Assembly: GCA_000381625.1 (NCBI GenBank)
Contig: KB906767.1
Coordinates: 5,075,357-5,139,356, forward strand
DNA: 64,000 nucleotides
Reading direction: 5' to 3'
Source: Bryobacterales bacterium KBS 96
GTDB lineage: Bacteria > Acidobacteriota > Terriglobia > Bryobacterales > Bryobacteraceae
In this document: positions 46,173-62,785 of the stretch, in pieces
Layout of the letters: the number at the start of each line of letters is the position of its first letter
Position numbering within the stretch: the stretch's first letter is position 1
Translations under genes and position numbers: made by a program
The notes under the pieces: generated by a model
Told to the model about the DNA's origin: nothing
What the model saw: the letters and a program-made list of their open reading frames with translations, nothing else
Database searches by the model: none

Positions 46173-47522
46173 TCATCGCGCCGCCGATGCGGTGGCGATG
46201 GCGCTCTGCCCTGGCGGCGTATCCACATACTCGATCCAGCCGTCCATCATTTCCGTCTCGCTGGCGGCGCCCCAGCGCACCACCTTGCTCGAATCCGGGT
46301 TCACGGGGTTGTTATTCGAATTATCGAAATACGCGTCGATCTTCAGCCGCGTGCCTTTCGGTATGAAGAGCGGTTGAGCCTCGCGATACGTGATCTGCCA
46401 GTTGAAGTCATATTTCGGCACATCGAGCAGAGTCTCCGATCGCCCGTCCGGATAGGTTACGGTGAATTTCATCGACTTTCCACGCAGGTGCATGTGCGGT
46501 GTCAGGCTCGTAATGTACATGTCCTGGTCGAACGTATGGCACTCTGTCACTTCTCGATTCGGATCGCCCGCCGGAATCAGAAACATGTGGTTCGAAAGAT
46601 CGATGCGCCTGGCAATTTGCTTCGGCGGCTTTTTCGCGAAAATCAATCCCACGCTAGTCGCGTCCGTTTCCGGCTTGCCGGTCGTCCGTGAATAATGGAT
46701 CTGGAAGCTGACCTTTGCGCCGGCAGGAATCTTTCGAGCCGTTCCTTCCGGATACACGTCCGGCCCGCGGCCCGGCAGATACGAGCCGATCAAACTGCCT
46801 AATGGATTCTGTTTGCTTCCGGGGAAGGCTCCGTTGTCATCTCTCAGGCAACCGTCGTCGATGACGGGCGCATCGGGCCGGATGAATTCGAGAGTTCCCT
46901 GTTTCACCATCAGCCAGCGGGTATAGGCGGCAGCGGGAGTATCAGGCTTCTTTTTATCCGGCGGCTCAACGACGAATACGTGAGCGTGATGAACCACCTT
47001 GCGATTGCCCGGACGCAGTTCAGCGGCAACAACCCACTTGTCTTCGGTCAAACCGGTGGGCACCGTCACGTATGTGTATTCGTCGGGACCGGTCGCAGCG
47101 AGATCGTGCTCCGGGATGGAAATGACAAGATCCGGCTTGCCGATCTTCCATCCCTCGGTAAACGTGGGTTGCGAAGGCAGTTCCTTCGGATCGCCCTCCG
47201 CCTTGTCGCCGTCCGCCCAGGCACGAATGGTCGCAATTTCCGCCGGCGTGAGCCGGGGATCGTTGGACCATTTGCCGTAACGCGGATCGGCCTTCCACGG
47301 CGGCATCTTGCCCGTCGCGACAGCTTCTTTCATCGCCGCCGCCCAGGGCCGCGCGTCGCGATAGGTCAGCAGCGACATGGGAGCGACGTCATTCGGATGA
47401 TGGCACTTCACGCAGTGCTTGTACAGAATAGGGGCCACATCGTGACTGAAGGTCACTTTCGCTGCACGCATCGTGAATGCTGCGGCGAATGCCACGAGAA
47501 ACGATAAGGCAAATAGGCGCAA
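46173..47522 (-). CDS. Cytochrome c fused to PHM-like copper monooxygenase domain
   Basis: A 449-aa exported protein (signal ~1-20). Residues ~22-105 form a cytochrome-c-like domain with a single haem site CVKCH and a Met candidate in GKMPPWKADP. The rest resembles the ascorbate-dependent type II copper monooxygenase (PHM) fold: HHAHVF for the first copper site and SLTPHMHLRG for the second, with Met in the final segment. Related two-domain proteins occur in Acidobacteriota and Planctomycetes. A redox role is likely and hydroxylation is inferred; the substrate is unknown. Confidence 0.85.
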   Translation of the reverse strand: MRLFALSFLVAFAAAFTMRAAKVTFSHDVAPILYKHCVKCHHPNDVAPMSLLTYRDARPWAAAMKEAVATGKMPPWKADPRYGKWSNDPRLTPAEIATIRAWADGDKAEGDPKELPSQPTFTEGWKIGKPDLVISIPEHDLAATGPDEYTYVTVPTGLTEDKWVVAAELRPGNRKVVHHAHVFVVEPPDKKKPDTPAAAYTRWLMVKQGTLEFIRPDAPVIDDGCLRDDNGAFPGSKQNPLGSLIGSYLPGRGPDVYPEGTARKIPAGAKVSFQIHYSRTTGKPETDATSVGLIFAKKPPKQIARRIDLSNHMFLIPAGDPNREVTECHTFDQDMYITSLTPHMHLRGKSMKFTVTYPDGRSETLLDVPKYDFNWQITYREAQPLFIPKGTRLKIDAYFDNSNNNPVNPDSSKVVRWGAASETEMMDGWIEYVDTPPGQSAIATASAAR

Positions 47523-47986: not shown

Positions 47987-48916
47987 ATGACTATATCCCG
48001 TCGTGAACTTTTGAAGAGCCTGCCGGCAGCCGCCGTTGCGGTTCCACTATTTGCCCAAACCGGGCGTCCCGATATTCACTTCCCGGTAAGCCCGCGTGAA
48101 CGCCTCGCGGTCACTTCCTATCCCTTCCGCGCCTACATCGAGGCGCCATCGAATCATGGCCGCGACAAGTCCAAGCGAGGCATGGATGTCAAAGAGTTCG
48201 CGGCGATGGTGTCGCGGCGTTTTGGCGTTCCGAACATAAACCCGTTGAGCGATCATTTTGCCTCCACCGATCCCGCATATCTCGATGCGTTTCGTACCGC
48301 CGTCGAAAAGGCCGGTTCGCACGTCGTGGACCTGGGCCTCTCGGGAGGCTATTTCTATTCGCCCGAGGAAGCGAAGCGAACCGAAGGCGTGGACTATGGA
48401 CGCAAGTGGATCGACGTCGCGAAAACGATCGGGTCTCCCAGTGTGCGGCAGCATGTCAGGGGTGCGGCCCGATCTCCGCAAAGCGTGGATCTAGCCGCGG
48501 AGAGCCTTGGCCGATTGGCCGAATACGGCGCAACCCGCAACATCATCGTCAACCTGGAGAACGACAGCCCTGTTTCGGAAGATCCATTCTTCCTGGTCAG
48601 CGTCATCGAGAAGGTGAACAATCCCTACTTGCGCGCACTCCCGGATTTCGGCAATTCCCTGGTGGGACACGATCACGGCTATAACCAGAAAGCCGTAAAA
48701 GCCATGTTTCGGCATGCCTACGGGATGGCTCACGTGAAGGATGCAGTGCGGTCGCACGACGGCAAAGAGTACACGGTGGATCTCTCAAAAATGTTTGCGA
48801 TTGCCAAGGCCAGTTCTTATCGTGGTTATTTTTCGATGGAGTTCGATACGGGTTCGGGCGATCCGTTCGAAGGGACCGCACGCCTGGTTGAAGAGAGTTT
48901 GAAATATCTAAAATGA
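47987..48916 (+). CDS. Tat-type xylose-isomerase-like TIM-barrel protein
   Basis: A 309-aa member of the sugar phosphate isomerase/epimerase (AP endonuclease 2) superfamily. The N-terminus ISRRELLKSLPAAAVAVPLFA is a twin-arginine signal. Barrel segments include VVDLGLSGGYFYSPEE, NIIVNLENDSP (a metal-ligand Glu), LRALPDFGNS and FSMEFDTGSGDPFEG, placing Glu, Asp, His and Glu metal ligands as in the family. ATG 47987 is chosen over 47927 because the signal begins there. It is first of seven co-directional genes; its TGA overlaps an ATG of the next. Confidence 0.86.
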   Translation: MTISRRELLKSLPAAAVAVPLFAQTGRPDIHFPVSPRERLAVTSYPFRAYIEAPSNHGRDKSKRGMDVKEFAAMVSRRFGVPNINPLSDHFASTDPAYLDAFRTAVEKAGSHVVDLGLSGGYFYSPEEAKRTEGVDYGRKWIDVAKTIGSPSVRQHVRGAARSPQSVDLAAESLGRLAEYGATRNIIVNLENDSPVSEDPFFLVSVIEKVNNPYLRALPDFGNSLVGHDHGYNQKAVKAMFRHAYGMAHVKDAVRSHDGKEYTVDLSKMFAIAKASSYRGYFSMEFDTGSGDPFEGTARLVEESLKYLK

Positions 48917-48963
48917 AAGCCCGGGATGGCGCTGCGGGATTATCCCGGACGTGGCAGAGGACT

Positions 48964-49962
48964 ATGAATCGAAAGCTTGGGGCGGCGGCAAGGCTCGCCG
49001 TCATCGTTGCGCTTGGGGTGGCTGCTGTCGAGGGAAGCGACCAGTTGTCTCCGGTGGAGTTTCATCAAAGCGCCAATAAAATCGACATCTTGATCGGCGG
49101 AAAGCTCTTCACGACCTACCATTTCGAAGCGAGTGTTGCGAAGCCATATTTTCAGCCGCTGCGGAGCGCACAGGGAACGATTGTCACGCGGGACTTCCCC
49201 AATGGCAATACCGTCCCCGCGGAGCATCAGAAGGACAAAAATCTCGAACCGCACCAGCGTCCCATGTACTTCGGCCACGGCAATGTGGATGGCATCGATT
49301 TTTGGGGTGAGGCCGCATTTCCGAAATGGAGCGACGATACGGTTTTCGGCCGCACGGTGCTTAAGAGGATTGAAGAAGTTCGCGGTGGTGCCAACGAAGG
49401 CGTGCTGCGCGCGACGTTCGACCTTGTCGGTCCTCGCGGCCGGGTGATTGCGCAACAGGAGCAGGCGTATACTTTTCGCGGAGATAGCCGGATGCGGTCA
49501 ATCGATTGCGAGTTTACGATTAAGGCGAACCAGGGCTCCGCGGTGACCATGGGCGACACAAAGGAAGGCTCCTTTGCGGTTCGAGTCGCGCAGGAGTTGA
49601 ATTCTCCCCCGGGCCACATCGTGAACTCCGCGGGCGCGACGGACGCGAAGGTCTGGGGACAACGGGCGGATTGGGTGGATTACTACGGCAATGTAAACGG
49701 GGAGAATGCGGGTGTCGCCATTATGGATAGTCCGAAGAGTTTTCGCCACCCGACGTACTGGCATGCGCGAACGTACGGGCTTGCGGCCGCGAATCCGTTC
49801 GCCATCCGGGAATTCAGCAACGACCCGGCAAAGGACGGCAGTTGGACGATTCAGCAAGGAGAAACGCTGACCTTTCGCTATCGGGTGGTGATTCACCATG
49901 GTGACTATCGCGAAGCCGGCATTGCTGAACTGTATCGGCGCTATGCCGCGGAGCAAAAATGA
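48964..49962 (+). CDS. DUF6807 (PmoA-like) exported protein
   Basis: A 332-aa protein with a signal peptide (KLGAAARLAVIVALGVAAVEG). Motifs RPMYFGHGNVDGIDFWGE, KEGSFAVRVA, WVDYYGNVNGENAGVAIMD and HHGDYREAGIAELYRRYA are those of DUF6807, commonly labelled PmoA in databases. It has no relation to the particulate methane monooxygenase membrane subunit. The protein is probably a beta-rich carbohydrate-binding or lyase-type fold; no activity is established. ATG 48964 follows AGAGGA; an ATG at 48913 overlapping the upstream stop is also possible. Confidence 0.82.
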   Translation: MNRKLGAAARLAVIVALGVAAVEGSDQLSPVEFHQSANKIDILIGGKLFTTYHFEASVAKPYFQPLRSAQGTIVTRDFPNGNTVPAEHQKDKNLEPHQRPMYFGHGNVDGIDFWGEAAFPKWSDDTVFGRTVLKRIEEVRGGANEGVLRATFDLVGPRGRVIAQQEQAYTFRGDSRMRSIDCEFTIKANQGSAVTMGDTKEGSFAVRVAQELNSPPGHIVNSAGATDAKVWGQRADWVDYYGNVNGENAGVAIMDSPKSFRHPTYWHARTYGLAAANPFAIREFSNDPAKDGSWTIQQGETLTFRYRVVIHHGDYREAGIAELYRRYAAEQK

Positions 49963-49997
49963 TTGAGATTCTGGCAGCACTACAGTAGGAGGTTTCC

Positions 49998-51419
49998 ATG
50001 TCAAAGGCAAAAGAACTGAACCGCCGCGATTTCCTGGGAGGCAGCACGGCCGGGCTGGCGGCGCTCGGCGGACTCGGCTTGCTGGCGCGACCCCAGAGCG
50101 TGCTCGGCGCGAATGATCGCGTGCGAGTGGCGATCTGCGGCCTGCACGGGCGCGGAATGGATCACGTCCATAATTACTCGAAGCTGGACAACGTCCAGAT
50201 CGCCGCGGTCTGCGATATCGACGAGAACGTGACGCGGGAACGGGTCGCGCAGATGGAGAAGATGGGAATTCCCAAGCCCGCCACCTATGTCGACGTGCGG
50301 AAGCTGCTTGAAGATAAATCGATCGACGCCATTTCCATCGCGACTCCCAATCACTGGCATTCATTGATGGCGATCTGGGCGTGCCAGGCAGGCAAAGACG
50401 TTTACGTTGAAAAGCCCTGTACGCACAACATTTTCGAAGGCAAGCAACTGGTTGCGGCGTCGAATCGTTACAAACGGATGGTCCAGCACGGAACGCAGTG
50501 CCGGTCGGATCTGGCGATGCGGGAAGCGGTGCAGAAACTGCACGATGGAGCGATCGGCGATCTCTACATGGCGCGCGGCCTCTGCTACAAATGGCGCGAC
50601 ACCATCGGACGCACGCCGGTCTCGCCGGTGCCCGAAGGCGTTGATTACGATCTTTGGACAGGTCCCGCTCCGAAGCATGAGTTCACAAAAAACCGTTTTC
50701 ACTACAATTGGCATTGGTTCTGGTATTACGGCAACGGCGATCTGGGCAATCAGGGCGTGCATCAACTGGATGTGGCCCGATGGGGAATGGGGCTCGGTTT
50801 CCCGAACAAGGTCAGCGCCATCGGTGGCCATTTCATGTTCGACGACGACCAGGAGACTCCGAACACGCTCAGTTGCTCGTTTGAATACGATCTGCCCGAA
50901 GGTAAGCGTCGCATGATTACGTTCGAGGTGAGGCACTGGATCACCAATCATGAAGCGGAGATCGGCACACCCGCGCTCGGCACGCCGGAGAGAAAGGCTG
51001 CACCCGGCAAGCCTAAACTGGGGCCTATGGCCGGATCGCACAACTCGGTTGGCGATATCTTTTACGGGTCGAAGGGATATCTCTCGACGGGAGATGAAGA
51101 CGCCGCGACGTATAAGATATGGCTGGGCCGCGACCAGGAGCCGCAGCCGGCCGTTACCAAGGGAAACGAGCGAGCTCACTTTCAAAATTTCATCGAGTGC
51201 GTGCAAAGCAGGAAGAAAGAGGATTTGCACGCGCCGGCGGAAGAAGGGCACATCTCTTGCGCGATGATGCACCTTGCCAATGCGTCGTACCGGTTGGGAA
51301 GAACGCTGAATTTCAATCCGGACACGCAGGAAGTGATCGGAGATGAGGAGGCGGCCCGGCTGCTGCGGGACGGCGATCGTGGCTACCGCCAGCCGTTTGT
51401 CGTGCCGGAGGAAGTGTAA
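49998..51419 (+). CDS. Gfo/Idh/MocA-family oxidoreductase, Tat-exported
   Basis: A 473-aa protein with a twin-arginine signal (NRRDFLGGSTAGLAALGG). The N-terminal Rossmann domain has VRVAICGLHGRGMDHVHNY and the catalytic-Lys motif DVYVEKPCTHN; the C-terminal alpha/beta domain includes NQGVHQLDVARWGMG, where the His is the usual catalytic partner. Exported members of the family are thought to oxidise or hydrolyse glycosides with a tightly held NAD(P). AGGAGG lies 7 nt before ATG. It is part of the seven-gene cluster, and the next gene follows after 37 nt. Confidence 0.9.
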   Translation: MSKAKELNRRDFLGGSTAGLAALGGLGLLARPQSVLGANDRVRVAICGLHGRGMDHVHNYSKLDNVQIAAVCDIDENVTRERVAQMEKMGIPKPATYVDVRKLLEDKSIDAISIATPNHWHSLMAIWACQAGKDVYVEKPCTHNIFEGKQLVAASNRYKRMVQHGTQCRSDLAMREAVQKLHDGAIGDLYMARGLCYKWRDTIGRTPVSPVPEGVDYDLWTGPAPKHEFTKNRFHYNWHWFWYYGNGDLGNQGVHQLDVARWGMGLGFPNKVSAIGGHFMFDDDQETPNTLSCSFEYDLPEGKRRMITFEVRHWITNHEAEIGTPALGTPERKAAPGKPKLGPMAGSHNSVGDIFYGSKGYLSTGDEDAATYKIWLGRDQEPQPAVTKGNERAHFQNFIECVQSRKKEDLHAPAEEGHISCAMMHLANASYRLGRTLNFNPDTQEVIGDEEAARLLRDGDRGYRQPFVVPEEV

Positions 51420-51456
51420 TCCAGTTCCGGATCGAGGCGGAGAAGCGGAGCGTTTG

Positions 51457-53655
51457 ATGAAGCGAAACACAAGGCGCGTGTTTATGAGGGGCGCCGTCGG
51501 CGCTCCGGCTATCCTCTCGGGAATGGGGATCGGAATGGCAAGAGAGGCGTCTCCCGCGACGGCCGATAGCCCCCGGCAGGCGCAATTTCCGGGCGTGGCG
51601 TATCGCAATTATCCGCGTTGTCTTCCGGATTACTTGCGGACCCTCGCGAACGCGTCCTATTTGAAGCGCAACCGGGCTGTGGCCGCACTGACGTCACCCG
51701 CCGCCATTCGCGAGCGCCAGCAATGGGCGCGCAAGACTCTGCTGGAATTGATCGGCTCTTTTCCAGAGAAGACGGACCTGAACCCGAAGGTGACGGGCTC
51801 TTTCGAGCGCGATGGATATCGTGTCGAAAAGATAGCCTACGAGAGCCGCCCGAAGCTGCACATTGCGGCGAATCTGTATATTCCGGCGAGCGGAAATGGT
51901 CCATTTCCGGCGGTGCTATTCCAGATGGGGCACTCGCTGAACGGAAAGGCGTATCACAGCTATCAGCGAGCGATTCAGGGGCTTGTGAAGCTCGGATTTC
52001 TCGTTCTGGCGTTCGATCCCATGGGCCAGGGAGAACGTGTCTACTATCCCGATTCCGGCGGGCTTCTCAGCCGCTTCGGAGACGCCGATGCCGAACACAC
52101 AGTGCCAGGGCGCCAGATGCTGCTGGCCGGCACGACCTGCACGCAGTTTCAGTTGTGGGATGCGATGCGTAGCCTGGACTATCTTGCGTCGCATCCTCTT
52201 GCCGACAAAAACAGGCTCGCTTCCACCGGGCAATCCGGCGGCGCCACGTTGACAATGCTTCTGTGTACGGTGGACGACCGCTTGAAAACCGCTGCCGTGT
52301 TTAGTGGCAACACGGAAAACGTGGCGTGTAAGAATTTTCTTCCACCGGGCTCGACCGACGATGCGGAACAGGATCTTGTGGGAGGTGGTCCGCTTGGATT
52401 CGATCGTTGGGATTTGCTGTATCCGTTCGCGCCGAAGCCGCTGCTGATTTCGATCAGCGACAAGGATTATTTCGGAACGTACTCGCCGAATTACATCGCG
52501 AATGGATGGGAGGAATACAAAAAGCTGGCCGGTGTCTATCGCGTCATGGGGGCAGCGAAAAATCTTGCGTGGTCGGATACCCCGTTGCCGCACGGCCTCT
52601 CATACGACAGCCGGCTCCAGATGTATAACTGGTTTCTGCGCCACCTCGCGGACGGCGGCAAACAAGTGGAGCGGGAGCCGGACGTGAAGCCCGAGGAAGA
52701 CGCGACCCTTTATGTTTCGTCGAGCGGCAACATGGTGCAGTCATTTGGCGGAGAGACTCCGTTCAGTTTGACAAAGCGGCGCGCTGCCGCTATTTCTGAA
52801 GAAGCGAAACCGGCTCGTCTGGAAGAATTGATTCGTCTGGAACGCCCTTCGCATGTACGGGCGAGCGTCCTGACGCAAGTTCCTTCCGCCGGCGGGGTGA
52901 CCATCGCCGCCGTCGATTTCGGCGTTTCGCCTCAGCTTGGTTTACCTGCGTGGCTGTTCCGGCCGAAGGACGATTCGGCGAATAAACCTGTCCTTCTCCT
53001 TCTGCATCCGCATGGGCGCAATTCGGCGTGGCACGAAGACCAGATCTACCCCTCGCTATCGCGGCAAGGCGCACTCCTGTGCGCGGCCGACGTGCGAGGA
53101 ATCGGAGATCTGGCTCAGGAATTCAGTTCGGGAAATCCCGGCTACATGCGCTCGCATCAGTTGGAAGAGGACTACGCCTGGTCATCTCTGATATTGGGCA
53201 GGCCCCTCGTCGGGCAGCGTGTCGCGGACATTCTGGCAATCGTTCAAGGACTGCAAGCCATCAAGGGACTTGAGAACCGTAAGGTCGTGCTTGCCGCGCT
53301 AGGCGGCATGACGATTCCCGCTTTATTTGCCGCGTCGTTCGAGCCGCGCATTACGAAGCTATACTTGGCCGGTGGACTTTCATCCTACCGCAGCATCGTC
53401 GAGACTGAAAACTATCACCATTCCCTCGCGGATTTCGTGCCGAATATTCTGGCGTACACGGACCTGCCGCGGATCGTCGCGCAATTAGCGCCACGGCGGG
53501 TGGTGATTGCCGGGCCACTCGACGGCGCGGGCTATCCGCTTTCCGCCGCATCCGCTCGGGACCTGTATAAGCAGGCGCTCACAGGCGGCCACCTCCAGCT
53601 TCGTGACAACGCCGATTGGGACGAAAACGCGCTCGGACAGTTCGCAGCCGGTTAA
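51457..53655 (+). CDS. Tandem alpha/beta-hydrolase (acetyl-xylan-esterase-like), exported
   Basis: A 732-aa protein with a Tat-like N-terminus (TRRVFMRGAVGAPAIL). The first hydrolase domain (~100-430) carries the nucleophile elbow TGQSGGAT (Ser 260), preceded by VLFQMGHSLNGKAY and LVLAFDPMGQGERV, as in acetyl-xylan or dienelactone-type esterases. A second, related domain (~480-720) opens with VLLLLHPHGRN but has LAALGGM where the elbow Ser should be, so it is probably inactive. Likely role: removal of acyl groups or lactone opening on a sugar. ATG 51457 is preferred; the upstream frame overlaps the previous gene. Confidence 0.85.
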   Translation: MKRNTRRVFMRGAVGAPAILSGMGIGMAREASPATADSPRQAQFPGVAYRNYPRCLPDYLRTLANASYLKRNRAVAALTSPAAIRERQQWARKTLLELIGSFPEKTDLNPKVTGSFERDGYRVEKIAYESRPKLHIAANLYIPASGNGPFPAVLFQMGHSLNGKAYHSYQRAIQGLVKLGFLVLAFDPMGQGERVYYPDSGGLLSRFGDADAEHTVPGRQMLLAGTTCTQFQLWDAMRSLDYLASHPLADKNRLASTGQSGGATLTMLLCTVDDRLKTAAVFSGNTENVACKNFLPPGSTDDAEQDLVGGGPLGFDRWDLLYPFAPKPLLISISDKDYFGTYSPNYIANGWEEYKKLAGVYRVMGAAKNLAWSDTPLPHGLSYDSRLQMYNWFLRHLADGGKQVEREPDVKPEEDATLYVSSSGNMVQSFGGETPFSLTKRRAAAISEEAKPARLEELIRLERPSHVRASVLTQVPSAGGVTIAAVDFGVSPQLGLPAWLFRPKDDSANKPVLLLLHPHGRNSAWHEDQIYPSLSRQGALLCAADVRGIGDLAQEFSSGNPGYMRSHQLEEDYAWSSLILGRPLVGQRVADILAIVQGLQAIKGLENRKVVLAALGGMTIPALFAASFEPRITKLYLAGGLSSYRSIVETENYHHSLADFVPNILAYTDLPRIVAQLAPRRVVIAGPLDGAGYPLSAASARDLYKQALTGGHLQLRDNADWDENALGQFAAG

Positions 53656-53797
53656 TCGCTTGGACTTCGCGAAATCGGATGCTTGTAGGGACGATGCATG
53701 CATCGCCCGCGCCATATTGGCTCCCGTTCTATCATCGGTTGATGGCGAAGAACGCTCCACGCATGCCCGCGAAATTATCGATCGAGGCCGCTGTATT

Positions 53798-54610
53798 TTG
53801 AGCGCCCCGGTCCGCGTTTTGCAGTCGCCCGATATTCCCGCTGCAATCGAACTATCGATGCTTGCCGGCTGGAATCAGACCGAGTCCGACTGGCGAACGC
53901 TGCTCGCACTCAGTCCGGAAGGTTGCTTTGGCATCGAGCACGAAGGCCGGCTGGCGGCGACCACGGTGGTCACTTGTTATGGCCGGGAGTTGGCATGGGT
54001 GGGAATGGTGCTGACGCATTCCGACTACCGGCGGCGTGGTTTTGCGCGCCGTTTGCTGGAGCATGCGTTGGAATATGTGGACGCTCGGCGCGTGGAATCG
54101 GTGAAACTCGACGCGACGGACCAGGGCCAGCCTCTGTACGAGAGTCTGGGCTTTCGCGCGGAGCAGGAGATCCAGAGGTGGTCCGGGTTAGGACGAGATC
54201 CCGCGCACATCGATCCGCCGGTGTCTTCCGCGTTCTCGGAAATTTGCGCCGCGGATCGCGAAGCGTTTGGGGTAGATCGCTCTCCGCTGCTTCATGCGCT
54301 GGCTGGCCATACATCGCCGTTCGTGCTTGGCGGGAATTATCTTTTGTGGCGGTCCGGCGTTCGCGCCGCGTATATGGGGCCGTGCGTCGCTGACGAAGCG
54401 GAATCGGCGCGGCAACTAATAGAGCATTGCGCCGGCGCTGATGAGGCACGCTGGTTCTGGGATCTTCTGGCTGCCAATGAACAGGCTGCCGAACTGGCGG
54501 TTGATTTTGGCTTTCGTGTGGAGAGAAGACTGATGCGCATGGCGCGGGGCGCGGAACTGCGGGGGAACGACGCCGCGATCTACGCGATTGCGGGCTTCGA
54601 ATTTGGGTAA
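53798..54610 (+). CDS. GNAT-family N-acetyltransferase
   Basis: A 270-aa cytoplasmic protein. The first ~135 residues form the acetyl-CoA-binding GNAT domain: SPDIPAAIELSMLAGWNQTESDWRTLLAL, AWVGMVLTHSDYRRRGFARRLLEHAL (pyrophosphate loop R-x-x-G-F-A) and LDATDQGQPLYESLGF. A C-terminal ~120-residue domain ends with a second GNAT-like half. No ATG is available: TTG 53798 fits the family start and follows CGAGG by about 10 nt. It lies 2 nt before the next gene. Its substrate is unknown. Confidence 0.82.
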   Translation: MSAPVRVLQSPDIPAAIELSMLAGWNQTESDWRTLLALSPEGCFGIEHEGRLAATTVVTCYGRELAWVGMVLTHSDYRRRGFARRLLEHALEYVDARRVESVKLDATDQGQPLYESLGFRAEQEIQRWSGLGRDPAHIDPPVSSAFSEICAADREAFGVDRSPLLHALAGHTSPFVLGGNYLLWRSGVRAAYMGPCVADEAESARQLIEHCAGADEARWFWDLLAANEQAAELAVDFGFRVERRLMRMARGAELRGNDAAIYAIAGFEFG

Positions 54611-54612
54611 CT

Positions 54613-55641
54613 ATGCCGATTGCAATTCAGACTGAAGAAGAACTGGAAGAAAGACTATCGCGGCCGTCAAGCGCGGACGCGGCCGCAATGGCTTCGCTCG
54701 ATGGAGATCTGCTGATCCTGGGCGCTGGCGGCAAAATGGGCCCGAGTCTCGCACGCCGTGCGCGGCGTGCACTAGAACAAACGGGAGTTTCGAAACGCAT
54801 CATCGCGGTCGCACGCTTTAGCAACCAAGATCTTGTCGCACAACTTCGTTCGCAAGGCATCGAAACGATCACGGCAGATCTTCTGGAACCCGGCGCACTG
54901 TCCCGTCTGCCGGATATCGGCAACGTGATCTTCATGGCGGCGCGCAAGTTTGGAACGAGCGGCGCCGAGCATCTCACGTGGGCGATGAACACGTATTTGC
55001 CTGGCTTGGTCGCGGAACGCTATCGCAATTCGAAAATTGTCGCGTTCTCAACGGGCAATGTGTACCCGCTTCGAGCCGTAAGCCAGGGCGGCGCTACCGA
55101 ATCAACGCCTGCTGAGCCTGTGGGTGAATATGGCCAGTCGGCGCTCGGGCGCGAGCGGATGTTCGAATATGCCGCGAGCAAGTGGAACACGCAGGTTTCG
55201 ATCTTGCGATTGAATTATGCCATCGATTTGCGCTACGGGGTGCTGCCGGATATCGGCCGCGCCGTGTACGAGCGGCGGCCCGTGGATGTACGAATGGGCC
55301 TGGTGAACGTGATCTGGCAGGGCGACGCGAACAGCATGTGCCTGCGTTCGTTTGCGCATTGCCAGTCGCCTCCGAATATTCTTAATTTATCCGGACCGGA
55401 AACGTTGTCCGTGCGATACATAGCGCAGGAATTCGGACGGCGCTTCGGCATTGAGCCGGTGTTGACCGGCGAAGAGTCGGGCACGGCGCTCCTCACGAAT
55501 GCGGCGAAAGTGCACCGGCTATTTGGCTATCCGGAAGTAACGGCGCTCGATTTGATCGACTGGACGGCGGATTGGATCGCAAGCGGTGGGGGCACACTCG
55601 GAAAGCCGACGCATTTCCAGGTTCGGGATGGACGATTCTGA
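54613..55641 (+). CDS. NAD-dependent epimerase/dehydratase-family protein
   Basis: A 342-aa short-chain-dehydrogenase/extended fold: dinucleotide motif LILGAGGKMGPSLARRA at 33-50, FSTGNVYPLRA and a Tyr-x-x-x-Lys-like site replaced by YAASKWNTQVSILRLNYA, where AASK/W keeps a Lys after Tyr 190. It probably oxidises or epimerises a sugar derivative with NAD. It lies 2 nt after the GNAT stop and its TGA overlaps the next ATG (TGATG), so it is tightly coupled with both. Compared with typical sugar epimerases, the N-terminal 30 residues are an extra acidic segment. Confidence 0.85.
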   Translation: MPIAIQTEEELEERLSRPSSADAAAMASLDGDLLILGAGGKMGPSLARRARRALEQTGVSKRIIAVARFSNQDLVAQLRSQGIETITADLLEPGALSRLPDIGNVIFMAARKFGTSGAEHLTWAMNTYLPGLVAERYRNSKIVAFSTGNVYPLRAVSQGGATESTPAEPVGEYGQSALGRERMFEYAASKWNTQVSILRLNYAIDLRYGVLPDIGRAVYERRPVDVRMGLVNVIWQGDANSMCLRSFAHCQSPPNILNLSGPETLSVRYIAQEFGRRFGIEPVLTGEESGTALLTNAAKVHRLFGYPEVTALDLIDWTADWIASGGGTLGKPTHFQVRDGRF

Positions 55642-56663
55642 TGAGCGTACGCGAAAAACTGCGGCAAGGTCTCGCCATTCCGGCGCATCCGTTGGCGCTT
55701 ACCTCGGACCGCAAACTGGACGAACGGCGGCAGCGCGCGTTGACGCGCTATTATCTGGCTTCGGGCGTGGGCGGCATCGCCGTCGGTGTGCATACGACAC
55801 AATTCGCGATCCGCGATCCGCGGATTGGGTTATTTCGGCCGGTTCTGGAACTGGCGGCGGAGGAGATGAAGGCTCGGACGGAACTAAAGATCGCCGGTGT
55901 TTCCGGGCCGACCTCGCAAGCCATTACCGAGGCCGGGCTGGCGCGATCGCTCGAATACGATGCCGCTCTTCTGAGTCTCGGAGCCTTGCGGGATGCGACG
56001 ACAACCGAGTTGATCGATCACGCGCGCGCGGTGGCCGCGATCATTCCAATCGTCGGTTTCTATTTGCAGCCGAGCGTCGGAGGGCGTGTTCTTCCGTACG
56101 AGTTCTGGCGCCGCCTGACGGAAATTGAGAATCTGGTTGCAATCAAGATCGCGCCGTTCAACCGTTATCAAACTATCGATGTCGTCAGAGCCGTGGCGGA
56201 ATCCGGACGCAGTGGCGAAATCGCTCTCTATACGGGGAATGACGACAACATCATTGCCGATTTGGTCAGCGCGTTCGAAGTGGGTGGTCAGCGAGTGCGC
56301 ATCGTGGGCGGATTGCTCGGGCATTGGGCGGTGTGGACGCGGAGTGCCGTCGATTATTTTCAGGCGGCCCGGGAGATCTCACAGAGCGAAGCTCCCATAC
56401 CACGGGAATTCCTGACATTGGGCACGCAAATTACGGACGCAAATGCCGCGTTATTCGATCCGTCGCACGCGTTCCACGGATGTATTGCGGGCCTCCACGA
56501 GATCCTGCGGCGGCAAGGACTCTTCGCCGGGCGCTGGTGTCTCGATCCGAACGAAGATCTTTCGCCAGGACAGATGGAAGAGATCGACCGCGTTTGCCGG
56601 CTGTACCGGCATTTACAGGATGATGAGTTTGTAAGAGAGAATCTGGATGCGTGGATGCGGTGA
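55641..56663 (+). CDS. DapA-family (dihydrodipicolinate synthase / N-acetylneuraminate lyase) aldolase
   Basis: A 340-aa class I aldolase-type TIM barrel. The Schiff-base Lys is Lys 169 in NLVAIKIAPFNRYQ, and the N-terminal strand-loop HPLALTSDRKLDERRQRALTRYY with GVGGIAVGVHTT holds the carboxylate-binding region in altered form. The family cleaves or makes C-C bonds of keto acids with pyruvate; catabolic members act on 2-keto-3-deoxy sugar acids. As last gene of the cluster it could be the cleavage step. ATG 55641 overlaps the previous stop. Confidence 0.86.
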   Translation: MSVREKLRQGLAIPAHPLALTSDRKLDERRQRALTRYYLASGVGGIAVGVHTTQFAIRDPRIGLFRPVLELAAEEMKARTELKIAGVSGPTSQAITEAGLARSLEYDAALLSLGALRDATTTELIDHARAVAAIIPIVGFYLQPSVGGRVLPYEFWRRLTEIENLVAIKIAPFNRYQTIDVVRAVAESGRSGEIALYTGNDDNIIADLVSAFEVGGQRVRIVGGLLGHWAVWTRSAVDYFQAAREISQSEAPIPREFLTLGTQITDANAALFDPSHAFHGCIAGLHEILRRQGLFAGRWCLDPNEDLSPGQMEEIDRVCRLYRHLQDDEFVRENLDAWMR

Positions 56664-58102: not shown

Positions 58103-60034
58103 TTACGGCGGCAGCGTGCTGCGCCGCACCAAATCCGCGAAATGTCGGTCAGAACGCAACGGATCGAGAGGGGGCTCGTTTGCGATTGCCGGAAACTGCG
58201 GGTCTCGTTCCTGGCATGCCTTCTCCAGCCACGCGAGCGCTTGCTCCTTTTCTCTGAGTCCACAGTAGACGACCGCTATCCCGAACGGCGAACCAAAGCT
58301 GTTTTGCTGTTGGGCTTTCAGGTTTTTAATGACGTCAAAGGCCTGGGCTCGTTTCCCGGACACAGCGTACGCATATCCAAGCCACGGAGCCAGTAGCGGG
58401 CTGTCGCCTCCGGGAAGGGTTGCGGATTCCCGAAGCTCGGATAAACCCTCCTGAAACATCCCTTTTTGCAAATATGCCTTGCCAAGCCAGCAATGCGCGT
58501 GAGCAGAGCGCGGCTCCAACTCGATAGTCTTGCGAATCTGCTCGATTGCTTCATCGTACCTTCGAGCCATGTACAGCACCCATCCGCGCTGATCGCTTGC
58601 ATTGAGCGATATTGGATCGAGTTCACGTGCCCGGTCGAGTTCATCCAACGCTTCCCCGTGCCGCTGCATGGTGGTCAGCGTCTCGCCCCGCCATATATGG
58701 GCAGGGCTGTAGCCGGGATTGAGTTGAATCGCGCGGCGAAACTCTTGATCGGAGCCCGGCTGGTCCCACTTGAATACAGAATCATACAGGCCAAGCGCGG
58801 CATGAGCCTCGGCTAGTGTGTCATCAAGCGCCAAGGCTTTCAACGCTGCAGCCCGGGCCTTGGGGTACATGTTTTGCGGACGGAGATGGGCGTAGATGCC
58901 CAAGGAATTGTACGCGTTGGCCAATCCCGCGTAGGCCAGAGCGTAGCTTGGGTCCTTCTGGACGGCCCGATTGAAGTACTCGATACTCTTCTGCAGATCC
59001 TGCTCGGTTCGTTTGTTCCAGAAGTAGTTTCCCCTGAGGTAATTTTCGTGAGCGACCGGATCGACGGGCCGGCTACTCGACAGCCCGGCACGTTCTTGGG
59101 ACGTCAGCTTGATCCGGATCTCGCCAGCAATTGCTCGCGCCACTTCCCCCTGGAGGTCCAACAGATTCCGCAGATCGCGTTCATAGCTCTCACTCCACAG
59201 GTGCATCTCCGGCACTGCCCGGATCACCTGGGCCGTGATCCTCACCCGTTCGCCGGCACGCAACAGCGTACCTTCCACCACCGCATCCACGTTCAATTCC
59301 CGCGCAATCTCGGGGAGGGGCTTCTTGGCCCCTCGATATCGCATCACCGAAGTTCGTGAAATCACGCGTAGCGCGCGGATCTTGCTCAGTTCCGTGATCA
59401 GCTCGTCGGTCATGCCGTCGGCGAAATACTCCTGCTCTTTGTCGCCGGACAGGTTTTCGAGCGGCAACACTGCTACTGAGGTAATGCCTTCGAAAGCTGA
59501 CCGGCCAAACCAGTGAGAGTGCTGCGACACGGCGAATAGCGAAAAGGCAACAGCCGCTGTCGCCAGCGCAGGTAGCAGTTGCCTCACTCTCGGCCACTGA
59601 AGGCCTTTTTCCGGTTTAGAGGGTAGCATGGCGACCGCTCGCAACGCACCAGTCCACAGGTGTCGATGCGGACGTGTGTGCGGCGATCCAGTCCCGGTCA
59701 TCAAAGACGGGCTCTCCGGTCCCTGAACTTCGGTCACGGCTGCTACGAATGAGTAACCTCGACCGGAAACCGTAGCGATATACCGATGTTGCTTCGGGTC
59801 ATCTCCCAATGCCTTGCGCAAAGTGGAGACATTCTGAGTGAGGTTAGCTTCTTCGACGGCTGTATCCGGCCACAAGGCAGCCATAAGTTCGTCTTTAATC
59901 ACGACTAGACCGCGATGACGGACGAGTACGACAAGTGCTTCCAGGCACTTTGCTGGTAGAACGACGGGTTCCCTGCCTCGGTAAAGGGAGCGTAACTCCG
60001 GGTTCAGAGCGAACGGACCAAATTGGTAAATCAT
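58103..60034 (-). CDS. CadC-like winged-helix regulator with TPR sensor domain
   Basis: A 643-aa protein. Residues 1-95 form an OmpR/PhoB-type DNA-binding wing ([35 protein letters not shown]). A membrane helix near 152-168 ([17 protein letters not shown]) is followed by a periplasmic-type FlgO-like segment ([34 protein letters not shown]) and about eight TPR units up to residue 600. One-component membrane regulators of this plan are abundant in Acidobacteriota. It lies divergent from the truncated gene at 60141, its probable former target, and is intact within a decayed region. Confidence 0.9.
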
Positions 60035-60344: not shown

Positions 60345-61210
60345 GCTGCGAAATGGATCCGGCGCGAGCAGGCATCCAGAATCACCGCTAGGAACACAAA
60401 CTCATCCTGCAAGCGGATGTAGGTGATATCCGCCACCCAGAGTTGGTCGATATCGGTTACCTCCATCTCACGGGCCAGGTTCGGATACACTTTCCGACCA
60501 TGGTTGGAATCCGTGGTAATCACGAATTTCCGTTTGCGCACGCACAGCAGGTTGTCTTCCCGCAGGATCCGGTACACGCGCTCTGCATTCACCGTCTAGC
60601 CGCGCGGCCGTAACTCGCGCGTGATCCGCGGCCGCCCGTAACACGGCCACTGCAGCGCAATGCGTTGAATAGCATCTCGTAGATCCATATCGCGATCCGC
60701 GCGCTGTCGTTGCTCGCCGCCCCCAAAGCGGTAGAAGCCGGACTGGCTTACTAGGCCCAGCTCCACCATGCGCTCGATCGTTAGTCCCCGGTTGGCTTTC
60801 ATTTCTTCTTGGACCTTCCGGTAGACCGCGGATTTCCAGTCAATGCCTGCAGCATCCGCCGTTCCTCGATGCGCTACAAGCATCCCTTCAAAAAATCGAT
60901 TTCCAGCGCCTGCTGGCCGAGCTTGCAGTCCAGCTCCGCTATCCGCCCCTCCGACCAGCGCCGGTTTTCCATTGCCAGAAAACGCGTCCCCTGGCCCTTC
61001 CCGGAACTCGCGCCGCCAACGGTGTAGCACGTTGGCGTTCACTTCCATGCCCGCGCCACCTCCGCTATCGATACCCCTTGCTCCAGCCGCTGCACAGCCT
61101 TCAGCTTGAACTCTTTCGTGAACTGCCTGCGAGACAATCCCATGACTCAAATTCCCCATTCGATGAATTTTGAGTCTTAACCGTTTGTCTAAATTTTGGG
61201 GACAAGTCCA
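60345..61210 (-). mobile_element. Decayed IS3-family insertion sequence remnant
   Basis: Minus-strand transposase relic. OrfA begins near 61143 (MGLSRRQFTKEFKLKAVQRL) and shifts frame after VARAW into EVNANVLHRWRREFREGPGDAF, then shifts again into a frame with GRIAELDCKLGQQALEIDFLKG. OrfB has RPRITRELRPRG, an in-frame TAG where family members have Trp, then NAERVYRILREDNLLCVRKRKF and the start of the DDE domain (DQLWVADITYIRLQDEFVFLAVILDACSRR), where it stops. The terminal inverted repeat is at 61186-61210; the other end and most of the catalytic domain are missing, so it cannot move. Confidence 0.9.
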
Positions 61211-61261
61211 GATGGCGTAACATGTCTTCTTGGCTAAATCTTGAATAGGAGAGCTGGTTCT

Positions 61262-62785
61262 ATGGCATATAGAATAAACGGCGCTTTTTGGCTTCTCGCT
61301 TTGCTTGCCGGCGCACCCGGGCTGGTGTACGGCGCCACTTATTACATCGATTCCAATCGCGGCCATGATACCAGCACGGGAACATCGCCGGAAGATGCTT
61401 GGCGAACTCTCGAAAAAGTGAATGCGACAGTGTTCAACTCCGGCGATCACGTGCTCTTTAGAGCCGGTGCGACTTGGAGAGGGCAGCTCTTCGTGAGGGT
61501 CTCAGGGTCAGACGGTCCACCGCTGGTCGTTGATCGTTACGGGCCCGGGGCAAAGCCTAAGATCGATGGTGGGGGCCGGGTCGAAGACGTCGTTCGGCTC
61601 TACAACATACAAAACGTGGAGATTCGAGACCTCGAAATCACCAACCATGGACCGCAGCCCGCCATTCGAAGAGGCGTTCACATCTTCCTCGAAAACTTCG
61701 GCACTGCAAGGCACATAGTGATTGCCGGACTCTACATCCACGATGTCAACGGCATCAACGGGAATGGCGACAATGCCAAGGACAATGGCGGGATCATCTT
61801 TCGAACGATGGGTGACAAAGTGCCCAGCCGGTTTGACGATCTCCGGATAGAGCGCAACATCGTCCAATCCGTTGACCGTTCAGGCATTGCAGCGCAGAGC
61901 TACCACGCTCTCCGCACACACTGGTTTCCGAGCCTGCATGTTGTCATTCGTGATAACTTCGTGGACGATATCGGCGGCGATGGTATTGTCCCTTGGGCGA
62001 CTAGCCATGCCCTGATCGAACACAATGTAGCCCGCAACTGCAATCGGCGCGCCCACAGTTACAATGCCGGGATTTGGCCCTGGAGCACTGACGACTCTCT
62101 TTTTCAACTGAACGAAGCCTACGATACGCGGACTACGCTGGACGGCGAAGGGTTTGATTCAGACTACAACTCGCGCAACACGGTGTTCCAGTACAACTAC
62201 AGTCACGATAATGAAGGCGGGTTCATGCTGATCTGCACACCCGTCGAGCGCAACGTGCAGGAGAACATCGGAAACGAAGGAACCGTCATTCGTTACAACA
62301 TCAGCCGCAATGATCATACTCGCGGCTTTAACCTAAGTGGCGCTGAGCACACAAGAGTTGCTCATAACGTTATCTACGTAAGTCCTGAAACAGACATGCA
62401 AATGGTTGCCGTCACAAAGTGGAAGGGATGGGCGCGGGATGCCGTATTTCGCGAGAACACGTTTTTCGCGCTGGGCGCCGCGCGATTCGGCCATGAAATC
62501 AAACGCAATCACGACGGTACATACGAACTTGCTCCGGGCTTTGGCCCGGCGAAAGATATCGTCTTCGAGGGCAATCGCTATATCGGGAAAATCGTCGATC
62601 GGCCCAACGACCCTCGTGCGGTCGCCCAAGCGTTCGCGCCGGAACCGAAGCTAGATTGGGCGGGCCCTCGATTTGATCCGGTTGATCCAAATCGTTTCGA
62701 TGCCTTTATGAAGGCGCACAGAAAATGGATGCTGCGACTGTTTGAGAAACAGTTTGGAGCGCCCGTTAAGCTTGGGCGCTGGTAA
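61262..62785 (+). CDS. Secreted right-handed parallel beta-helix protein
   Basis: A 507-aa exported protein: signal peptide MAYRINGAFWLLALLAGAPG, cut near VYG, then TYYIDSNRGHDTSTGTSPEDAWRTLEKVN, the usual opening of secreted polysaccharide-active beta-helix proteins. Residues ~75-420 contain many short strands with Asn/Ile ladder patterns (NIQNVEIRDLEITNHG, NVARNCNRRAHSYNAGIWPW). It is probably a polysaccharide lyase or glycosidase, but no catalytic set can be named. ATG 61262 follows AGGAGAG. It lies 51 bp beyond the IS end, so its promoter may have been replaced by the insertion. Confidence 0.85.
   Translation: MAYRINGAFWLLALLAGAPGLVYGATYYIDSNRGHDTSTGTSPEDAWRTLEKVNATVFNSGDHVLFRAGATWRGQLFVRVSGSDGPPLVVDRYGPGAKPKIDGGGRVEDVVRLYNIQNVEIRDLEITNHGPQPAIRRGVHIFLENFGTARHIVIAGLYIHDVNGINGNGDNAKDNGGIIFRTMGDKVPSRFDDLRIERNIVQSVDRSGIAAQSYHALRTHWFPSLHVVIRDNFVDDIGGDGIVPWATSHALIEHNVARNCNRRAHSYNAGIWPWSTDDSLFQLNEAYDTRTTLDGEGFDSDYNSRNTVFQYNYSHDNEGGFMLICTPVERNVQENIGNEGTVIRYNISRNDHTRGFNLSGAEHTRVAHNVIYVSPETDMQMVAVTKWKGWARDAVFRENTFFALGAARFGHEIKRNHDGTYELAPGFGPAKDIVFEGNRYIGKIVDRPNDPRAVAQAFAPEPKLDWAGPRFDPVDPNRFDAFMKAHRKWMLRLFEKQFGAPVKLGRW

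Follow-up and report, generated by a model that had tools for sequence, protein, structure and literature searches.

This report concerns seven neighbouring genes of Bryobacterales bacterium KBS 96, located at positions 47,987 to 56,663 of a 64,000-nucleotide stretch of contig KB906767.1 (the window, meaning that whole stretch) from a 6.7-Mb assembly, and above all the last two of them, which encode a protein of epimerase-like fold (Epi) and a protein of the dihydrodipicolinate synthase (DHDPS)/N-acetylneuraminate lyase superfamily (the DapA-like protein, gene DapA). An earlier note on this DNA had read the seven genes as a single sugar breakdown route, beginning with exported and ending with cytoplasmic enzymes.

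Layout of the seven-gene locus

The features are listed below in the order of their coordinates; two groups of genes are referred to as unit 1 and unit 2.

47987..48916, + strand: TIM, a TIM-barrel, xylose-isomerase-like protein with a twin-arginine (Tat)-like signal (PF01261, 76.4 bits); unit 1
48964..49962, + strand: DUF6807 exported protein (PF14100, 234.6 bits); unit 1
49998..51419, + strand: Gfo/Idh/MocA oxidoreductase (Gfo/Idh) with a Tat signal (Pfam GFO_IDH_MocA and C2 domains); unit 1
51457..53655, + strand: Tat-like exported two-domain alpha/beta hydrolase (esterase; AXE1 over residues 115-280; AXE1/Abhydrolase_7)
53656..53797, no strand: 142-nt gap, the longest of the cluster and a possible separate transcript start
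53798..54610, + strand: GNAT, tandem domains (PF00583, Acetyltransf_1, and PF18014, Acetyltransf_18), TTG start at 53798; unit 2
54613..55641, + strand: Epi, extended-SDR-fold protein (SDR, short-chain dehydrogenase/reductase) without the YxxxK lysine (PF01370, 30.2 bits); unit 2
55641..56663, + strand: DapA-like protein, DHDPS/N-acetylneuraminate lyase superfamily, motif HTTQF (PF00701, 40.5 bits); unit 2

Seven open reading frames are present on the plus strand at the positions given earlier, and the spacing described for them holds. Gaps of 47 nt (from the TIM stop at 48916 to the DUF6807 start at 48964; an alternative upstream start at 48913 would overlap TIM), 35 nt (DUF6807 to Gfo/Idh), 37 nt (Gfo/Idh to esterase), 142 nt (before GNAT) and 2 nt (GNAT to Epi) are followed by a 1-nt overlap of Epi and DapA, TGATG at 55641. 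Inspection by eye bears out the predicted export of the first four products, with a Tat-like RR in TIM, Gfo/Idh and the esterase and a Sec-like start in DUF6807, and the cytoplasmic location of the last three, since no export signal was seen by eye in GNAT, Epi or the DapA-like protein. The assignment to keto-sugar-type families likewise agrees with the family matches. No NCBIfam enzyme family scores above its cut-off for any of the seven proteins; the only NCBIfam match above cut-off is the TAT-signal domain, in Gfo/Idh alone, and Pfam TAT_signal stays below its cut-off. Promoter-like sites (3 versus 3.6 in shuffles) and terminator-like sites (10 versus 10.2) show no excess, and transcription units are therefore unreadable from the sequence. 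GNAT, Epi and DapA may have a transcript of their own that starts in the 142-nt gap.

Conservation of the Epi-DapA pair

All gene counts given here come from the same sample of 150 genomes of the window's order (G identifiers), and co-occurrence p-values ignore ancestry. DapA was found in 106 of these genomes, Epi in 109 and GNAT in 94. Epi and DapA occur together in 105 genomes and neither was found in 40; four carry Epi only (G053, G056, G122, G147) and one DapA only (G033), which gives a phi of 0.92. For comparison, phi is 0.54 between DUF6807 and DapA and, for a small Gfo/Idh family (A5), 0.59 with DapA and 0.66 with Epi. The two genes also vary together among the genomes listed of genera g2, g10 and g18. 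They are co-directional and at most 1.5 kb apart in 82 of the 105 genomes, and clustering the neighbours at 40 DapA loci (window included) returned DapA at 40, Epi at 31 and the next cluster at 7. In 12 of the 16 genomes of the third family sampled that carry both, the two genes are not found within 1.5 kb of each other; the tie therefore survives the loss of linkage. An example is G005, with the genes at 4.09 and 5.47 Mb; genus g54 retains both genes without their being neighbours. Because many genomes have short contigs, missing linkage is in part missing sequence, and some matches in the linkage counts are gene fragments at contig ends.

We also read loci around DapA matches (L identifiers), which comprise order loci, named loci and plasmid loci. 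The named loci are the best 80 DapA loci outside the order among the matches listed in a contig scan (56-70% identical); together with the 40 order loci they give 117 distinct loci, three being common to both sets. In the 80 named contigs, Epi is adjacent to DapA (co-directional with a gap below 700 nt) in 65; another 3 have it at a different place in the locus, 10 lack it, and 2 are undecidable because DapA lies too near the locus start. The adjacent pair appears under about a dozen phylum-level names, taken from record titles and unchecked for metagenome-assembled genomes (MAGs): the titles include Acidobacteria, Verrucomicrobia, Planctomycetota, Bacillota, Bacteroidota, Balneolaceae, KSB1, TA06, Elusimicrobia, Omnitrophota, Caldilineaceae, Spirochaetes and Victivallis. 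In all eight plasmid records read, Epi has a homologue (48-58%): it adjoins DapA in those of Paenibacillus, Streptomyces (two), Aquisphaera, Mesobacillus and Prescottella and lies one gene away in Nitratireductor and Tistrella. Taken together, Epi and DapA form a deeply conserved pair that is far more widespread and more tightly co-inherited than the whole cluster. We found no paper on this pair, which is weak evidence as subscription papers lay mostly outside the search.

GNAT is a third member. It occurs with Epi in 93 genomes, without it in one, and is missing from 16 with Epi, neither being found in 40 (phi 0.76); as Epi is present in 93 of the 94 GNAT genomes, GNAT is upheld as a true partner of Epi and DapA. 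GNAT and Epi lie within 1.5 kb of each other in 15 of the 93 genomes, and Aquisphaera, Tistrella and a Balneolaceae MAG have a GNAT (30-36% identity) next to the pair. Enrichment near DapA was compared with 40 control regions placed by hand, all from the order and several per genome, which makes them a poor comparison for the named loci; 39 order loci were counted, L061 (8 kb) was omitted, and the profiles were seeded partly from DapA loci, a bias that favours enrichment. With these profiles, GNAT was found near DapA at 7 of 39 order and 10 of 80 named loci versus 1 of 40 controls (p 0.026 and 0.066).

D-2-hydroxyacid dehydrogenases also recur near DapA (6/39 and 6/80 versus 0/40; p 0.012 and 0.082). 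A sugar ATP-binding cassette (ABC) transporter and a hydroxyacid dehydrogenase adjoin the pair in Streptomyces, a sugar ABC transporter does so in Paenibacillus, and one locus of another genome has a tripartite carrier and a protein annotated as mandelate racemase. Such neighbours suggest sugars and hydroxy acids, and those at the Paenibacillus and Cohnella loci suggest the removal of acyl groups and of ammonia. A damage-control or housekeeping pair that clears a side product, instead of serving a nutrient route, would fit its retention by 105 of the 150 genomes, most of which have a single DapA match, and the housekeeping-type genes that often adjoin it; with sugar ABC carriers next to the pair and neither gene found in 40 genomes, we regard this explanation as improbable.

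Several further neighbours were observed. A protein of 470-490 residues stands beside Epi-DapA in three lineages (L147:4529-5974, L152:6725-8203, L105:9108-10520; 35-40% mutual identity); it has no Pfam match at 1e-5, and one copy, annotated as mandelate racemase, gave no match when tested against the PDB. A small protein precedes Epi at L039:11555-12055 and six other order loci, mostly with a 4-nt overlap, and also at L075, L084 and L118; the one scanned belongs to the adenosine-specific kinase family (PF04008). The short Gfo/Idh-like family A5, with a DxSH motif (L145:11829-12749 and relatives), clusters close to the pair at 10 of the 80 named loci; it is present in 104 of the 150 order genomes, including that of the window (C1:487729). 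In Paenibacillus and Cohnella, serine-dehydratase alpha and/or beta genes follow DapA at six loci (L111, L114, L117, L145, L095, L150), four of which also have an M20 hydrolase.

Predicted folds and chemistry of the pair

The AF2 model of Epi has a pLDDT of 94.9, and Foldseek retrieves TerB and GalE-type folds. The GxxGxxG glycines, Ser146, Tyr173 and Lys112 are invariant in 61 of 61 aligned rows. Position 177, the place of the YxxxK lysine, is Cys in 32 rows, Ala in 15, Val in 8, Thr in 5 and Gly in 1. Epi therefore has the fold and glycine motif of a classical extended SDR and lacks its Ser-Tyr-Lys set with YxxxK, Lys177 occurring in 0 of 61 rows. Of the name given to it earlier, NAD-dependent epimerase, the family part stands (PF01370, Epimerase), and the catalytic lysine expected of an SDR is absent. 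The role of Epi is the least certain step of the mechanism considered here.

The model of the DapA-like protein (pLDDT 93.6) goes with a set of residues, Lys169, Tyr141, Thr53, His51, Gln54 and Phe55, found in 52 of 52 rows across phyla. Its PF00701 score exceeds the gathering cut-off of 22.1 bits, and with the Schiff-base lysine and the tyrosine in every row the assignment to the DapA family of lyases and aldolases stands. Position 138 of E. coli DHDPS is an arginine that serves the second substrate; at its place, in a column located by reading and not by structural superposition, 50 of 52 rows have Val and the others Ala or Ile. The 50 Foldseek hits listed, all with 17-22% identity, are N-acetylneuraminate lyases, DHDPS, HOGA and L-2-keto-3-deoxyarabonate dehydratase, and a profile search of PDB sequences (1e-6) returned a single match, N-acetylneuraminate lyase. 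Two specific assignments were rejected. The lysine-pathway DapA (TIGR00674) scores 20.5 bits against a cut-off of 206, the DHDPS arginine is missing, and seven of the eight PF00701 proteins in the same genome match PF00701 better, the one discussed here being the weakest. A uronate dehydrogenase acting with KdgD, as in the oxidative hexuronate route, is not favoured because the SDR lysine is missing and the KdgD score is weak.

Because of these residues and the predicted fold, the DapA-like protein is likely to carry out Schiff-base chemistry on a 2-keto acid, which would be bound by Lys169. With Tyr141, it would then make a retro-aldol cut in a 2-keto(-3-deoxy) sugar acid to give pyruvate and an aldehyde. 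This aldol cleavage is the likeliest chemistry. The best profile match, N-acetylneuraminate lyase, favours it over dehydration, and we consider it a little short of an even bet. The converse, that the protein is a 2-keto-3-deoxy sugar acid dehydratase comparable to KdgD or 2-keto-3-deoxyarabonate dehydratase, with Epi alongside in an oxidative sugar-acid route, appears unlikely: fold and Schiff-base residues are the same and KdgD does match weakly (18-19 bits), but these scores lie far under the cut-offs, the best profile match is a lyase, and an aldehyde dehydrogenase was not recognised among the recurrent neighbour clusters scanned, which were some of the clusters.

For retro-aldol cleavage, Epi could bind NAD(P) and make the substrate ready through an oxidation, an epimerisation or an elimination, by a mechanism adapted to the lost SDR lysine, and GNAT might acetylate an amine-bearing, possibly inhibitory, intermediate. 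Alternatively, the substrate of the pair would be an acylated amino-sugar acid: de-acylation and ammonia removal would lead to a 2-keto-3-deoxy acid for aldol cleavage, with GNAT protecting or re-acetylating the amine. The co-inheritance of GNAT, the match to N-acetylneuraminate lyase, and serine-dehydratase-type beta (6), alpha (5) and M20 hydrolase (5) genes in the 80 named loci are consistent with it, as is a Glucosamine_iso-family protein beside DapA in L065. The serine-dehydratase partners are limited to the Paenibacillus and Cohnella loci, however, and a GNAT match is absent in 16 of 109 Epi genomes, so we give this explanation little credence.

The pair probably breaks down a sugar acid. 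Our tentative proposal, which we hold with somewhat less than even confidence, is that Epi and DapA constitute an undescribed two-enzyme catabolic step in a dozen or more phyla, in which a lysine-less SDR-fold protein and an HTTQF subfamily of pyruvate aldolases act on a sugar acid. If true, a widespread group of proteins annotated only as "dihydrodipicolinate synthase family" would acquire a partner in Epi, a frequent helper in GNAT and a chemistry that can be put to the test, with carriers that include soil phyla and the culturable Paenibacillus, Streptomyces and Zobellia. Epi itself would be a natural SDR-fold family without the catalytic lysine.

The exported set and its place beside the pair

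For unit 1, neighbours were compared over all 22 TIM rows, 22 of the listed Gfo/Idh rows and 15 of the listed DUF6807 rows. Homologues of the window TIM with at least 57% identity occur in 5 of the 149 other genomes (G061, G095, G115, G134, G144), and window-type TIM (E<=1e-50) in 16 of 150. Among the matches listed, relatives of Gfo/Idh (best solved relatives 8tdf/8tdh) reach 81% in G061 and 74% in G095, in both beside TIM; the two genes stand side by side, 17 nt apart in G061, 71 nt in G095 and 593 nt in G134, whereas in G144 they are less tightly placed and on opposite strands. Gfo/Idh has DUF6807 next to it in G109, G134, G137, G144 and G147, but of the 30 best DUF6807 loci, counting the window, no more than 8 have a Gfo/Idh match within about 1.5 kb, and this pairing is therefore not general. 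With an esterase near DUF6807 and less than 8 kb from Gfo/Idh, all four genes recur together in G061 and G095, and three of the four in G134. The sets of G095 and G061 also include a major facilitator superfamily (MFS) carrier, a Glucosamine_iso-family protein and an outer-membrane barrel receptor, and that of G095 a LacI regulator. The statement that the cluster has no kinase or transporter is correct for this copy; as regards the transporter it is limited to this copy, given the MFS carrier in relatives.

The two units are separate in these relatives. Neither GNAT, Epi nor DapA was found in G095, a draft 90% complete in which absence counts weakly, and no GNAT, Epi or DapA occurs within 12 kb of the 21 TIM matches other than the window's. 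Conversely, the 117 distinct DapA loci gave no match to the TIM or DUF6807 of the window at E<=1e-8. Near DapA, neither Gfo/Idh (12/39 order and 25/80 named loci versus 8/40 controls; p 0.2 and 0.14) nor TIM (3/39 and 11/80 versus 6/40; p 0.92 and 0.68) is significantly enriched; per 100 kb, the named loci have 3.0 Gfo/Idh hits versus 1.05 in controls, which speaks for a link, and 1.2 TIM hits versus 0.79. We therefore reject the seven genes as one conserved cluster: the units are not contiguous in relatives, and no window-type TIM or DUF6807 was found at these DapA loci. The neighbourhood comparison that the earlier note had proposed for DapA and DUF6807 revealed no shared seven-gene neighbourhood, only partial and different combinations, and the single conserved route is not supported, the exported set standing apart from the pair in relatives.

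A PF01182 protein of the Glucosamine_iso family was observed both in exported sets (G095, G061, G109, G137) and at some DapA loci (L065, L125, L129), with copies at L204:8442-9287, L065:4254-5006 and L125:224-1051. Near DapA it occurs at 1 of 39 order and 2 of 80 named loci versus 0 of 40 controls, too few for a claim.

The esterase is a possible bridge, the part most likely to be shared between unit 1 and unit 2. Its N-terminal domain keeps the nucleophile serine and the histidine, and its C-terminal domain is degenerate, with Gly at the nucleophile place, so that "tandem esterase" is right as to two domains and not as to two intact sites. The GxSGG and PH motifs occur in 20 of 20 rows, two of which repeat proteins already counted; the window protein has the aligned Asp, which 7 of the 20 rows lack. 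The window protein distantly matches 6goc (E 5e-11 over about 310 residues), which we take to be BT1017 pectin methylesterase. At 48% identity or more, the esterase has homologues in 59 genomes, of which 52 also carry GNAT. Esterase and GNAT are neighbours in 18 of these 52 (window included), divergent in 17 with 25-141 nt between matches and co-directional in the window only; esterase and DapA are convergent neighbours in four genomes. The GNAT-linked esterases form two clades apart from the window's in a tree without G128 and G142. Near DapA, the esterase was found at 5 of 39 order and 3 of 80 named loci versus 1 of 40 controls (p 0.095 and 0.59), and no enrichment is claimed.

These links bear on one route of all seven genes, in which periplasmic oxidation of a ring hydroxyl, isomerisation and de-esterification would be followed by uptake and cytoplasmic cleavage. 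Such a route would explain the common direction and short gaps, the esterase beside GNAT or DapA in separate parts of the esterase tree, and the Glucosamine_iso-family protein on both sides. Joined arrangements do exist: at L073, two Tat-like Gfo/Idh, two TIM and an MFS carrier are divergent from GNAT-Epi-DapA; an Aquisphaera plasmid has GNAT-Epi-DapA-acetylxylan esterase next to TIM, Gfo/Idh and DUF1080; a Mesobacillus plasmid has the order TIM-Gfo/Idh-Epi-DapA; and TIM and Gfo/Idh genes stand beside the pair on a Nitratireductor plasmid. Such joining has therefore happened more than once. Against one route speak the lack of window-type TIM and DUF6807 at DapA loci, the lack of significant enrichment of Gfo/Idh and TIM there, the G095 set without any core gene found, the 142-nt gap and the missing kinase and carrier; it is a doubtful explanation, though less so than the dehydratase.

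We judge it an even chance that two units stand here side by side and that unit 2 is the local copy of a widespread GNAT-Epi-DapA module with the Epi-DapA pair at its heart. For unit 2, co-inheritance, adjacency, predicted folds and conserved residues are in evidence. Unit 1, comprising TIM, DUF6807, Gfo/Idh and the esterase, would be an exported keto-sugar and de-esterification set, and the two units may act in sequence here. Several points weigh against this interpretation. The comparison pairs are correlated too (phi 0.49-0.66 for DUF6807 or the small Gfo/Idh family versus core genes), and part of each co-occurrence is therefore shared ancestry. Epi may be inactive as a redox enzyme, and proteins of the DHDPS fold include dehydratases, one of them among the listed Foldseek hits. 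The neighbours of the pair vary widely (biotin-carboxylase-like and HslU-like proteins by eye, RNase R, adenosine-specific kinase, a Cys/Met pyridoxal phosphate enzyme) and so do not point to one sugar. Gfo/Idh together with TIM was found at 5 of the 80 named loci and at 3 of the 8 from plasmids, compared with 0/39 order loci and 1/40 controls, which leaves room for one joint route. Finally, the closest relatives of the window esterase (G060, G104, G141, G095) are not GNAT-linked, and core genes were not found in G141 and G095, the former a draft 82% complete.

Three flanking genes on the minus strand were observed: at 46173-47522 a secreted-looking protein beside the cluster whose copper monooxygenase C-terminal match stays under the Pfam cut-off, at 58103-60034 a regulator-like protein with Trans_reg_C and TPR downstream of it, and at 60596-61450 what by eye resembles a frame-broken IS3-type transposase remnant.

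Compared with known systems, unit 1 resembles periplasmic keto-sugar routes (PMC9007349), without the features that define these. With the Bacteroides 3-keto-glycoside route it shares a Gfo/Idh that is exported, judged by its signal, and whose best NCBIfam match is BT_2158_fam; at 149.8 bits, this glycoside 3-dehydrogenase family (NF058561) stays below its cut-off of 750. The DUF1080 hydrolase (PF06439) that defines 3-keto-glycoside cleavage clusters is annotated beside the Aquisphaera copy but has no match at E<=0.01 among the seven proteins of the window, where DUF6807 is present instead; in the one paper found to contain it (PMC10971088), DUF6807 is only named. The esterase resembles BT1017 pectin methylesterase in its alpha/beta hydrolase fold, GxSxGG motif and aligned Asp and His in the N-terminal domain (PMC7939467), and differs in having no DUF3826 match and an extra degenerate second domain.

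For the pair, Epi is like the extended SDRs GalE and TerB in fold, GxxGxxG, Ser and Tyr and unlike them in the missing YxxxK lysine, which TerB retains in the alignment. The DapA-like protein shares with the class I pyruvate aldolases (N-acetylneuraminate lyase, 2-keto-3-deoxygluconate (KDG) aldolase, HOGA, DHDPS) the TIM-barrel, Lys169, Tyr141, Thr53 and a GNDD turn; it differs from them by its HTTQF motif (first Thr replaced by Ser in 10 of 52 rows), the absent DHDPS arginine and invariant W156, R175 and Y176 of its own.

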